Under the pieces are notes generated by a model. It ran no database searches, was not told the origin of the DNA, and saw nothing but the letters and a program-made list of their open reading frames with translations. A stretch of DNA of 64,000 bases from Vescimonas coprocola (lineage in GTDB: Bacteria; Bacillota; Clostridia; Oscillospirales; Oscillospiraceae): contig NZ_AP023418.1 in assembly GCF_018408575.1 (NCBI RefSeq), positions 1,888,415 through 1,952,414 of the forward strand, read 5' to 3'. Shown here in pieces: positions 2,573 to 39,907 of the stretch; positions within the stretch are counted from its first letter, which is position 1; every line of letters starts with the position of its first letter. A program made the position numbers and the translations under genes.

Positions 2573-2598
2573 ACTCTTAAAGCACCTCCACTTTCTAC

Positions 2599-2712
2599 TT
2601 AGCCCTGTCTCTGCTTATGCTTCGGATTTTCGCAGATCACCATTACACGGCCCTTTCTGCGAATGATCTTGCACTTCTCGCACATGGGCTTCACGGACGG
2701 TCTTACTTTCAT
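2599..2712 (-). CDS. rpmJ: 50S ribosomal protein L36 (zinc-binding type)
   Basis: This is a very small gene of 37 codons encoding a peptide that starts [20 protein letters not shown]. The CxxC pair (Cys11, Cys14) with Cys27 and His32 forms the zinc site of the C+ form of L36. The protein binds near the peptidyl transferase centre. An AGGAGG ribosome binding site precedes the ATG, and infA lies just upstream, as expected. Confidence 0.96.
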
Positions 2713-15737: not shown

Positions 15738-16025
15738 TTGGTTCGTTCCTCCATTATTTCGTACGGTTTTTGATTGCGTGACCAACTGCCGTACGGTGAG
15801 AGTTCTTATACGCCGTTCCGTGCGTATCATTCCGGCTCATAAGAAACACCGGCGCAAAATCCGGCCGGTGTCCTTCTGGCGCAGCGATCTACGCTGACGT
15901 GCAGAAACTTCTCAGCCGCCCGATGATCGGACATACTCCCCGGAAGTTACCTCCTCTCGGAGCAATCTCCCGGTTCATCGCATTTGTACACGCCTCCGGG
16001 TGTGCAGCACCCTCAGCGCACGTAC
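15738..16025 (-). promoter_or_regulatory. Structured 5' leader of the S10 operon
   Basis: About 290 bases separate the predicted transcription start from rpsJ and contain no gene. On the minus strand they can form several hairpins: ACACCGGC/GCCGGTGT (15846-15853 with 15864-15871) followed by a short T-rich stretch, ATACGC/GCGTAT (15808-15813 with 15822-15827), and CGTACGG/CCGTACG (15760-15766 with 15789-15795). The first looks like a weak intrinsic terminator, so leader-based attenuation of the operon is plausible, but this is inference. Confidence 0.5.
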
Positions 16026-36867: not shown

Positions 36868-36897
36868 TTGACATATGGTCGTCTGCTGTGCTAAAGT
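36868..36897 (+). promoter_or_regulatory. Sigma-A promoter of the aromatic leader peptide/ABC transporter unit
   Basis: The -35 TTGACA (36868-36873) and -10 TAAAGT (36892-36897) have an 18-base spacer. An inverted repeat TTTATTC-N10-GAATAAA (36840-36863) lies immediately upstream and could be an operator. Confidence 0.75.
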
Positions 36898-36931
36898 ACA
36901 GACAAGATTTTTGAAAGGAGCAAAATCGGGT

Positions 36932-37039
36932 ATGAAGTTCGCCGCATCTGCAAATCTGTATTTTGGATATTCCTACTTTTACTTTTATTTTGCAAAAGTA
37001 AAAGCGATTTGTGATGCCCAGCAGCGAAAAAGTGCTTGA
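36932..37039 (+). CDS. Tyr/Phe-rich leader peptide (putative attenuator peptide)
   Basis: This 35-codon frame has AGGAG 11 bases before its ATG. Residues 10-20 read YFGYSYFYFYF, that is five tyrosines and four phenylalanines in eleven codons, far above chance and like the leader peptides of phe and trp operons. The Tyr/Phe codons overlap the 5' arm of a perfect 11-bp hairpin (36976-36986 with 36994-37004). An intrinsic terminator follows 40 bases after the stop codon and the transporter genes come next. The peptide probably has no function beyond sensing charged tRNA-Tyr and tRNA-Phe. Confidence 0.75.
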   Translation: MKFAASANLYFGYSYFYFYFAKVKAICDAQQRKSA

Positions 37040-37079
37040 TACCGATTTTCTACTTTTGAAAACAAACCGTATCGAGAGA

Positions 37080-37118
37080 CGCCGTTCGGATCACATATCC
37101 GGGCGGCGATTTTATTTT
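37080..37118 (+). terminator. Conditional terminator (attenuator) upstream of the ABC transporter operon
   Basis: A 12-bp stem with two G-U pairs (37080-37091 with 37097-37108) and a 5-base loop is followed by ATTTTATTTT. It lies between the leader peptide and the substrate-binding protein gene, so transcription must pass it to express the transporter. Upstream, AAAAGTA (36994-37000) can alternatively pair with TACTTTT (37051-37057), and CTTGATAC (37035-37042) with GTATCGAG (37069-37076). The exact switching pair is not resolved. Confidence 0.75.
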
Positions 37119-37168
37119 CCGTCCGGGCCGGAGGAATCTCCCACATCCAGATTCAGGAGGAATTTGTC

Positions 37169-38170
37169 ATGAAAAAGAAACGTTCTCTTTGCGCCGCCCT
37201 GCTGGCGGGACTGATGGTGACGGCGGTATGCCTCACCGGCTGCGGTAAAAAAGCCGACGACAACGCCGGCGGAGGCAGCAGCGATCCCGACAAGGTCTAT
37301 CAGGTGGGCGTGTGCCAGCTGACCCAGCACGATGCGCTGGACGCCGCTACACAGGGCTTCGTGGATGCCCTGAATACCATTCTCGGAAGTGAGCACGTCA
37401 ACATCGACGTGCAGGTGGCCTCCGGCGACAGCACCACCTGCACCCCCATCGTCAACTCCTTCGTCAACAAGAAGGTAGACCTCATCATGGCCAACGCCAC
37501 CCCGGCCCTGCAGGCAGCCTATAACGCCACCACCTCCATTCCCATTCTCGGCACCTCCGTTACGGAGTACGGCGTGGCACTGGGGCTCTCCGACTTCAGC
37601 GGCACCGTGGGCGGCAACATCAGCGGCACCTCCGATCTGGCGCCCCTGACGGAGCAGGCGGACATGATCCTGGAGCTGGTGCCGCAGGCCAAGACTGTGG
37701 GACTGCTATACTGCTCCGCCGAGCCCAACTCCGAATATCAGGTGAAGGTGGTGGAGGACTACCTCTCCAATAAGGGCCTCGCCTGCACCCGCTACTCCTT
37801 CAGCGACAGCAATGACGTGGCCGCCGTCACCACCAAGGCCGCCGCAGACAGCGACGTCATCTACATCCCCACCGACAACACCGCCGCCTCCTGCACTGAG
37901 ACCATCGGCAGCATCGTCCGCTCCGCCAAGACCCCCGTTGTGGCCGGCGAGCAGGGTATCTGCGCCGGCTGCGGCATTGCCACCCTCTCCATCAGCTACT
38001 ACGATCTGGGCTACAAGACCGGCGAAATGGCCGCTCAGATCCTCAAGGGCGAGGCGGATATCTCCCAGATGCCCATTGAATACGCCAATGCCTCCAAGCT
38101 CTACAACCCCACTATGTGCCAGGAGCTGGGCATCACCGTGCCGGAGGGCTACACCGCTCTGGAGGGCTGA
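37169..38170 (+). CDS. ABC transporter substrate-binding lipoprotein, TrpX-like
   Basis: This is a 333-residue extracytoplasmic binding protein. A lipoprotein signal peptide ends at the lipobox LTGC with the lipidated Cys25. The body (VYQVGVCQLTQHDALDAATQ onward) belongs to the ABC-substrate-binding family used by the trpXYZ-type transporters of streptococci and clostridia, which carry tryptophan or other aromatic amino acids. The Tyr/Phe leader upstream suggests tyrosine and/or phenylalanine as substrate here (inference). AGGAGG precedes the ATG. Confidence 0.85.
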   Translation: MKKKRSLCAALLAGLMVTAVCLTGCGKKADDNAGGGSSDPDKVYQVGVCQLTQHDALDAATQGFVDALNTILGSEHVNIDVQVASGDSTTCTPIVNSFVNKKVDLIMANATPALQAAYNATTSIPILGTSVTEYGVALGLSDFSGTVGGNISGTSDLAPLTEQADMILELVPQAKTVGLLYCSAEPNSEYQVKVVEDYLSNKGLACTRYSFSDSNDVAAVTTKAAADSDVIYIPTDNTAASCTETIGSIVRSAKTPVVAGEQGICAGCGIATLSISYYDLGYKTGEMAAQILKGEADISQMPIEYANASKLYNPTMCQELGITVPEGYTALEG

Positions 38171-38217
38171 AGCACTCCCTGAGAAAACAGGAATCGGAAA
38201 AGGAAGGAAATATAAAT

Positions 38218-39120
38218 ATGATCGATCTGCTGAGTTCCCTGCCGGGTGCCGTAGCCCAAGGCCTCATCTGGGGCATAATGGCGGTGGGCGTTTACATCAC
38301 CTACAAGCTGCTGGACATCGCCGATCTGACGGTGGACGGCTCCATCTGTACCGGTGCGGCGGTCTGCACCATGATGCTGCTGAGCGGCCGGAGCCTGTGG
38401 CTGGCGGTGCTGTGCGCCGTGGCGGCGGGCCTGCTGGCCGGGGTCGTGACAGGCCTGCTGCATATCTGGCTGGGCATCCCCCCCATTCTGGCAGGCATCC
38501 TGACCCAGATGACCCTGTGGTCCGTGAACCTGAAGATCATGGGCAAGGCCAATCAGGGCCTGTCCGTCCGGGACAACCACGTCCTTCTCAGCCAGATGGA
38601 CGTCCCCGGTGCGCTGGTGGTGCTGGCCATTGCCGCCGTGCTGGTGGTGGCGGTGCTGTACCTGTTCTTCGGCACGGAGCTGGGCTGCGGCATCCGGGCC
38701 ACCGGCTGCAACCCCGTCATGAGCCGGGCGCAGGGCATCAACACCGATCTCAGCAAGGTCATCGGGCTGTCCCTCTCCAACGGGCTGGTGGCCCTGTCCG
38801 GGGCGCTGCTGTGCCAGTATCAGGGCTATGCCGATATCAATATGGGCCGGGGCGCCGTGGTCATCGGTCTGGCGGCAGTGGTCATCGGGGAGGCGGTGGT
38901 CAAGCACATTTCCCCCAACTTCGCTGTCCGGCTCACCGGCGTACTGGTGGGCGCCGTTATCTACTATCTGGTGTATCAGGTCATCATCTTCGTGGGCTTC
39001 GACACCGATCTGCTGAAAATGTTCTCGGCGCTGGTGGTGGCCGCCTTTTTGGGCGTGCCGTATGTGAAGAAGCAGCTGGCCCGGAAACACCATGTCAAAG
39101 GAGGGATCCGTCATGCTTGA
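38218..39120 (+). CDS. ABC transporter permease, TrpY-like
   Basis: This 300-residue integral membrane protein of the branched-chain-type permease family has about eight hydrophobic helices. The start at MIDLLSSLPGAVAQGLIWGI follows GGAAGG. It contains the family segments GVYITYKLLDIADLTVDGS and FGTELGCGIRATGCNPVMSR. It overlaps the ATPase gene by 8 bases. Confidence 0.88.
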   Translation: MIDLLSSLPGAVAQGLIWGIMAVGVYITYKLLDIADLTVDGSICTGAAVCTMMLLSGRSLWLAVLCAVAAGLLAGVVTGLLHIWLGIPPILAGILTQMTLWSVNLKIMGKANQGLSVRDNHVLLSQMDVPGALVVLAIAAVLVVAVLYLFFGTELGCGIRATGCNPVMSRAQGINTDLSKVIGLSLSNGLVALSGALLCQYQGYADINMGRGAVVIGLAAVVIGEAVVKHISPNFAVRLTGVLVGAVIYYLVYQVIIFVGFDTDLLKMFSALVVAAFLGVPYVKKQLARKHHVKGGIRHA

Positions 39121-39907
39121 AATGCGCCATGTGACCAAGATCTTCAATCCCGGTACCGTGGACGAAAAAATTGCTCTTAATGACCTGTCCTTCACCCTCA
39201 ACGACGGGGACTTCGTCACCGTCATCGGCGGCAACGGCGCCGGGAAGAGCACCATGCAGAACGCCATCTGCGGCACGTGGCTGCCGGATGCGGGGGAGAT
39301 CCTTCTGGATGGGATCGACCTCTCCTCCCTGTCGGAGCATCAGCGGGCCAAGTATCTAGGCCGGGTGTATCAGGACCCCATGACCGGCACCGCCGCCGGG
39401 ATGCAGATCGAGGAGAATCTGGCTTTGGCGGCCCGCCGCGGCCTGCGGCGCACCCTGCGGCCCGGCATCCGCAAAGCGGAACGGGAGGAGTACCGGCAGC
39501 GGCTTCAGGAGCTGGGGCTGGGGCTGGACACCCGTCTTTCGGCCAAGGTAGGCACCCTCTCCGGCGGCCAGCGGCAGGCGCTGACGCTGCTGATGGCCAC
39601 CCTCCGTAAGCCGAAACTGCTGCTGCTGGACGAGCATACGGCGGCGCTGGACCCCAAGACCGCCGCCAAGGTCATGGAGCTGACGGAGCGGATGGTGACG
39701 GAGGAGAAGCTCTCCACCCTGATGATCACCCACAATATGCGGGACGCCATCCGCTACGGAAACCGCCTTATCATGCTCCACGCCGGGCGCATCATTCTGG
39801 ATATCTCCGGTCAGGAGAAGAAGGATCTCACCGTGCCGGAGCTGCTGGAGATGTTCGCCCGTGCCAGCGGCAACGAGTTCTCCGGCGACCGGGCCATTCT
39901 GGCGTAA
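39113..39907 (+). CDS. ABC transporter ATP-binding protein, TrpZ-like
   Basis: This is a 264-residue nucleotide-binding subunit. Walker A is GGNGAGKST, the signature is LSGGQRQALTLLMA, Walker B is LLLLDEHTAALD and the switch His lies in MITHNMRDA. The first in-frame start lies inside the permease gene; the ATG giving MLEMRHVTKIFN has AAAGGAGG upstream. It completes a three-gene importer. Confidence 0.92.
   Translation: MLEMRHVTKIFNPGTVDEKIALNDLSFTLNDGDFVTVIGGNGAGKSTMQNAICGTWLPDAGEILLDGIDLSSLSEHQRAKYLGRVYQDPMTGTAAGMQIEENLALAARRGLRRTLRPGIRKAEREEYRQRLQELGLGLDTRLSAKVGTLSGGQRQALTLLMATLRKPKLLLLDEHTAALDPKTAAKVMELTERMVTEEKLSTLMITHNMRDAIRYGNRLIMLHAGRIILDISGQEKKDLTVPELLEMFARASGNEFSGDRAILA

Follow-up and report, generated by a model that had tools for sequence, protein, structure and literature searches.

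A candidate tyrosine/phenylalanine leader-peptide attenuator upstream of a TrpX-like transporter operon in Vescimonas coprocola

Introduction

In the genome of Vescimonas coprocola, a short reading frame crowded with tyrosine and phenylalanine codons lies directly upstream of an operon for an ABC transporter. Does this leader control the transporter and, if so, which amino acids does it sense? We addressed this question in a stretch of 64,000 nucleotides (the window; contig NZ_AP023418.1 of assembly GCF_018408575.1, forward strand), to which all positions below refer. An earlier note, made from the letters alone, had proposed ribosome-mediated attenuation with mixed Tyr and Phe sensing.

Results and Discussion

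Anatomy of the leader

The features of the locus are collected in Table 1. The 35-codon leader ORF with its ribosome binding site, the aromatic run, the perfect 11-bp hairpin over the Tyr/Phe codons and the 12-bp intrinsic terminator with T tract between leader and operon, all of which the earlier note had named, are present in the sequence. Tyr/Phe codons occupy positions 3 (Phe), 10, 11, 13, and 15–20 of the ORF, and residues 10–20 (YFGYSYFYFYF) comprise nine aromatics in 11 residues. When stop-free stretches of at least 20 residues were scanned in all six frames of the 64 kb (99,003 eleven-residue windows), no other cluster had eight or more aromatics per window; the run itself accounts for three overlapping windows. 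Hairpin 1:2 has a 5' arm that extends from the third base of codon 15 through the first base of codon 19. A longer in-frame version of the leader ORF, starting at 36875, is also in the ORF list; that start lacks a clear ribosome binding site. The terminator hairpin (37080–37108) is followed by ATTTTATTTT, and the RNA from 36900 to 37125 is more stable than all of 200 dinucleotide shuffles (z -4.25). Two elements of an attenuator, a leader ORF with clustered codons and a terminator before the first gene, are thus found in the sequence itself.

Table 1. Features of the leader and the transporter operon (positions in the window)
Feature	Position	Strand	Details
Sigma-70-like promoter of the leader	36868..36897	+	TTGACA, 18 nt, TAAAGT; TG before second hexamer; 10/12 consensus matches
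Shine-Dalgarno AAAGGAG of the leader ORF	36914..36920	+	11 nt before ATG; from sequence
Leader ORF, 35 aa, MKFAASANLYFGYSYFYFYFAKVKAICDAQQRKSA	36932..37039	+	ATG at 36932; stop ends at 37039
Hairpin 1:2, 11 bp	36976..37004	+	perfect pairing of 36976–36986 with 36994–37004; -7.4 kcal/mol; covariation in relatives
Antiterminator 5' strand (segment 2)	37004..37026	+	pairs with 37080–37100; duplex -18.6 kcal/mol
Conserved box CGATTTGTGATGCCC, core of segment 2	37005..37019	+	family consensus AGYGAUUUGUGAUGC
Hairpin between leader stop and terminator	37035..37076	+	joins the antiterminator strands; from folding
Intrinsic terminator 3:4 and T tract	37080..37118	+	12 bp, loop CACAT; -20.6 kcal/mol
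Substrate-binding protein, TrpX-like	37169..38170	+	PF04392; NF041285 below cut-off
Permease	38212..39120	+	PF02653
ABC ATPase	39092..39907	+	PF00005

The 50 bases that separate the T tract from the transporter gene favor a reading in which the leader transcript simply ends at the terminator and the transporter is expressed from a promoter of its own, the leader acting in trans or being inert. We regard this as very improbable: the sole promoter-like site between 36500 and 37400 is the one 5' of the leader (judged by consensus match alone, with 0.5 such sites expected by chance), and in the relatives described below, DAHP synthase genes, pheA, and transporters are preceded by the same layout.

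Covariation and alternative folds

Hairpin 1:2 covaries in relatives, as the check suggested in the earlier note had envisaged. Across 32 distinct sequences, in an alignment fitted to the structure model, 98.6% of the cells were paired and six of the 11 pairs showed two-sided changes; none of 500 shuffles had covariation as high, and the hairpin scored above all slid versions of itself. The attenuation layout is further supported by an antiterminator that the earlier note had not named, formed by segment 2 and the 3' partner given in Table 1. In the window, it takes up the whole 5' arm and the loop of the terminator. For RNA from 37004 to 37098 or 37102, the antiterminator is the minimum-energy fold; once the box is free and the full terminator has been made, the terminator is the minimum-energy fold (-32.9 kcal/mol). 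Because the complete terminator wins energetically, the model depends on folding during transcription. When no ribosome is present, the fold buries the box.

Pairing between the box and the terminator apex was evaluated in 55 members of the leader family. The mean energy with a member's own terminator was -18.0 kcal/mol, compared with -13.9 for permuted partners, and none of 5000 permutations was as low. When the own box was shuffled, 48 of the 55 members reached 5% or better. The window lies at 9.7%, this being the share of shuffles that pair equally well (15% in another such test), and of 32 foreign terminators, from a set of 33, 12 match or exceed its own in pairing with its box. By a cruder count of ungapped pairs over 13 positions, own combinations had 10.3, foreign 9.7, and shuffled 8.7, and at least nine such pairs were present in 51 of the 55 own combinations, 78% of the foreign, and 55% of the shuffled ones; like the covariation test, all of these pairing tests ignore the relatedness of the members. 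Joint changes in box and terminator include GUGAUUU with AAAUCAC, GCGAUUU with AAAUCGC, and GUAAUUU with GGUUAU or GAUUAC. Folding and the 55-member permutation thus argue for a mutually exclusive antiterminator, with weak support from the shuffles of the window itself.

An ORF with a ribosome binding site followed by a terminator would suffice for a separate small gene, encoding a functional aromatic-rich protein and ending in an ordinary terminator that takes no part in alternative-fold regulation. With box and terminator apex matched across members and hairpin 1:2 covarying, we find this reading extremely improbable. The position of the stop codon speaks against it as well: it precedes the box in 20 of the 55 members, lies within it in five and follows it in 30, so that the box is conserved as RNA. 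The same observation bears on a different possibility, that the leader is an arrest peptide and free Tyr, Phe, or Trp, acting as a cofactor of the nascent chain, stalls the ribosome, charged tRNA not being the signal. TnaC is the known likeness. The conserved aromatic cluster is compatible with this, and the stall would fall at the same place. However, among the 55 members Tyr and Phe interchange, peptide length, ends, and flanks vary, and no fixed arrest motif was seen by eye, whereas the RNA box is fixed even where it lies outside the ORF. We therefore consider an arrest peptide improbable.

The region of the leader ribosome binding site (36914–36935) can pair with approximately 37034–37056, 3' of the leader stop. 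Sequestration of this site was considered as a feature of the family and rejected because just nine of the 55 members reached 5%, despite 0 of 300 shuffles in the window and a strong case in L022.

Proposed mechanism and known attenuators

From the computed anatomy, conservation, covariation, genomic context, and alternative folds, we propose with high confidence that the leader acts by ribosome-mediated transcription attenuation: it would sense charged tRNA-Tyr and tRNA-Phe and control an importer whose substrates are probably tyrosine and phenylalanine. When both amino acids are plentiful, the ribosome would clear the Tyr/Phe codons; hairpin 1:2 would then re-form behind it, or the box would be covered, and the terminator would stop transcription. 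When Tyr or Phe is scarce, we infer that the ribosome would stall around codons 13–20, over the 5' arm of hairpin 1:2, and leave the box free. In a kinetic choice between folds, the free box would pair with the 5' arm and loop of the terminator once these are made, and RNA polymerase would read into the transporter genes. If the leader is not translated, a long fold would bury the box and leave the terminator to form. In some bacteria, RNA polymerase runs ahead of the ribosomes, as studied in B. subtilis (PMC13323073); the attenuation mechanism would be weaker if this applied here. The locus makes transcription-translation coupling testable in these bacteria.

The mechanism itself would be classical. 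The trp, his, and pheA leaders are the classical attenuators of the Proteobacteria, and the leader in the window shares with them a leader peptide enriched in the amino acids to be sensed, the 1:2, 2:3, and 3:4 folds, and the intrinsic terminator. It differs from them in that two amino acids would be sensed, in its occurrence in Clostridia and also on a transporter, and in having no Rfam match at the gathering score. Regulation of this kind is known; the sequence family looks new, as does its exchange with T-boxes.

For Firmicutes, leader-peptide attenuators are described for histidine in the cited parts of Naville and Gautheret (2010; PMC2965389) and Rodionov et al. (2022; PMC9413887); these likewise use leader peptides but differ in the amino acid, the genes, and the small sets of species. 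The former also notes leader peptides that replace T-boxes (PMC2965389). The ilv-leu operon of Staphylococcus aureus has, according to the cited text, a Leu-rich attenuator with experimental support (PMC5794164), again a Firmicute leader peptide, differing in leucine, the biosynthesis operon, and the lineage. The candidate uORFC-13-1 precedes aroF and has a U run coding for Phe, followed by a terminator; its 24 representatives stem, by the same description, only from Acholeplasma and environmental sequences (PMC8632094). Compared by description only, its uORF/terminator/aroF layout is like that of the leader family in the window. A comparative study of attenuation from 2010 is cited in PMC4833913. 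The trpX transporter of Streptococcus suis is reported, in the cited portion, to be under T-box control (PMC9382623); it is a transporter of the same kind under tRNA-sensing control but differs in using a T-box, in responding to Trp, and in having no leader peptide.

A leader family found mostly on DAHP synthase-tyrA operons

Beyond what the earlier note could see, the leader belongs to an RNA family that in related Clostridia stands mostly on DAHP synthase-tyrA operons, whose genes serve the synthesis of tyrosine and phenylalanine. Two covariance models were used, R1 (codon hairpin and box, four sequences) and R2 (33 members). In the order, R1 had matches in 35 of 394 genomes, one of which (L148) was partial and dropped. 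For R2, the genus gave matches in 7 of 32 genomes, the family sample in 117 of 400, the class sample in 13 of 391, and the phylum sample in 4 of 398; every R1 and R2 count includes the own genome, and the genome samples overlap. Most of the 30 R1 loci that were read precede a DAHP synthase gene followed by a TyrA-like gene and have a Y/F-rich ORF and usually a terminator. Assigned by sequence signatures, the genes downstream of 79 loci are DAHP synthase in 70 (67 also with tyrA), a transporter in six, and others in three. The 55 members contribute 45 loci with DAHP synthase and tyrA, one with DAHP synthase alone, all six transporters, and the three others; a further 24 loci, those of the best 30 R2 matches in the family sample that were not already included, contribute 22 with both genes and two with DAHP synthase. 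Pfam confirmed DAHP synthase for L126 and L158 and PDH_N for L126, and the identities at loci beyond those checked by Pfam rest on the signatures.

The ORF picked in each member has at least six Tyr/Phe residues in 54 of the 55, the exception being L140 with two Trp, and the ATG ORF picked by the script is not Y/F-rich in three of the 24 further loci (L181, L185, and L191). L148, L164, and L172 were left out of the members as partial or non-aromatic; L146, which has a Y/F leader for which the script found no terminator, stands outside the 55, and L163, L167, and L170 were kept in the counts though the terminator hairpin given by the script is probably wrong. At L140 (around 1464–1540), the two Trp codons are adjacent (FIWWRF), the same box is present and a PLP enzyme by Pfam, TrpB-like by NCBIfam, follows; this leader is possibly a Trp-sensing version of the family. 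The same leader family also precedes pheA at L155 (1460–1600; chorismate mutase-prephenate dehydratase by Pfam) and an AMP-binding enzyme at L163 (1463–1640; Pfam). Near the DAHP synthase-tyrA locus of L135, FMN and SAM riboswitches lie at 1699–1834 and 2578–2677 (+).

A T-box (RF00230) or other known RNA was rejected for the leader in the window, where Rfam 15 gave no family at the gathering score; up to E 1 the one match was malK-II (21.6 bits, 52.9 needed, E 0.2). The RF00230 model does match the leader of a paralogue in the same genome. Rfam searches with the leaders of 20 loci and of 14 loci, the latter up to E 1, also gave none at the gathering score, and in a search of the open-access literature we found no report of this Tyr/Phe leader family or of its use on a transporter. 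Found neither in Rfam nor in the open-access papers searched, the leader RNA is apparently an undescribed family, and it provides a family model with which aromatic amino acid control in Clostridia can be searched for. Elsewhere in the window, at 15916–15986 (-), lies an S10-Clostridia ribosomal protein leader (40.9 bits).

The transporter and the aromatic pathway of the host

The TrpXYZ-like operon announced in the earlier note is recognizable by the families of its three products (Table 1). The binding protein scored 232.7 bits against NCBIfam TrpX (NF041285), under the curated cut-off of 390, and is by its sequence TrpX-like, short of an assignment as the tryptophan-binding TrpX. Trp sensing by the leader was rejected as the leader has zero Trp codons; the Trp T-box belongs to a paralogue of the binding protein in the same genome (L002), which is 29% identical, has the T-box directly upstream, and has a specifier read as UGG (Trp). 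The transported amino acids are probably tyrosine and phenylalanine, and the leader thus hints at the cargo of a poorly annotated ABC importer.

The own genome (two contigs, rated 100% complete) encodes a DAHP synthase, which has no R2 match and, by eye, no such leader in its upstream sequence; the transporter leader is the sole R2 match in this genome. A profile search of the genome for prephenate dehydratase (PDT) gave no match, and the search for TyrA (PDH_N) gave nothing above the cut-off and one sub-threshold match, in an ORF that we take by eye to resemble glycerol-3-phosphate dehydrogenase. Because of these two results, the host is predicted, as judged by these two families, to be a Tyr and Phe auxotroph. 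Our best reading of the locus is a Tyr/Phe attenuator on the importer of a predicted auxotroph.

Exchange between leaders and T-boxes at orthologous transporters

Relatives of the transporter were matched in 25 of 60 genomes, the own genome counted, and a wider search was followed through its best 80 of at least 597 candidates, all in named contigs. Among these 80 and the loci of the genus, leaders of the window type also precede the transporters L022, L040, L042, L044, and L047; the leader ORF ends before the conserved box in L047 and within it in L040. The remark in the earlier note that such transporters are often T-box controlled fits the orthologues: L043, L053, L055, L016, and L085 bear Tyr T-boxes (specifier UAC; the flank is degenerate in L085). 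The T-boxes of L002, L024, L028, and L031 have the specifier UGG (Trp). A T-box match adjoins the binding-protein gene in nine of the ten loci given, L097 being the one without. The T-box pattern was a widened version that takes in five Trp T-boxes missed by a narrower one. L050, L070, and L101, called as leaders by pattern, were scored as none because they resemble parts of neighboring genes, and L020 was scored as a leader by eye.

In a tree of 110 binding proteins, built by a quick method with SH-aLRT supports, the six window-leader members fall into one clade of nine (SH-aLRT 91), together with two T-box members (L057 and L085) and one member with neither (L041). All six leaders lie in a wider clade of 27 (SH-aLRT 92), which also takes in five Tyr T-boxes, assigned by pattern, and L057, where the pattern did not read the specifier; the Tyr T-box orthologue L016 falls outside this clade. 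The Trp T-box paralogues sit apart from the clade in this quick tree, on long branches. Upstream of a 46%-identical binding protein (L027), whose frame has one internal stop, lies a T-box with the specifier UUC (Phe), read by pattern only; the same genome carries the Tyr T-box orthologue L016.

Within the genus, 14 of 32 genomes have a transporter orthologue (at least 50% identity), the copy of G011 being cut by the contig end. The earlier note implied that the leader should recur in relatives, and Y/F leaders do precede ten of these 14 orthologues, as they do genes across the wider RNA family. Two of the ten belong to the family of the window and eight are of another kind; in the other four, no Y/F leader was seen. 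A prephenate dehydratase match was found in none of the ten genomes with a Y/F-led transporter, compared with two of the four without a leader. All of the five genus genomes with an R2 leader before DAHP synthase have a prephenate dehydratase match, and none of them has the transporter orthologue. This link between leader placement and the Tyr/Phe pathway is suggestive only, since many of the genomes are incomplete drafts and all are related. The eight leaders of the other kind (L006, L007, L008, L010, L013, L015, L017, and L020; RGYYYGFMARYFAGYF, RGFYYAYEARYAGYAY, and others) have a strong hairpin and a T tract after the ORF, and none of them matches R2.

We lean slightly toward one homologous Tyr/Phe leader family, widespread in this family of Clostridia, that would regulate DAHP synthase-tyrA in prototrophs and would have moved to a Tyr/Phe importer in lineages where the pathway was lost, orthologous importers elsewhere using Tyr T-boxes. 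Under this reading, ribosomes in these Clostridia would follow RNA polymerase closely enough to make ribosome-mediated attenuation a main regulatory route. The breadth of the leader family and its exchange with Tyr T-boxes are to us the most interesting aspects of the locus, which would offer a natural case of two tRNA-sensing mechanisms, T-box and leader peptide, being exchanged at orthologous genes. A search of plasmids at the DNA level gave no match. A Y/F-rich leader (SYAFFYFTSLFCFGFF) with a terminator also lies before a transporter at L088 (2530–2670), on a contig labelled Spirochaetaceae.
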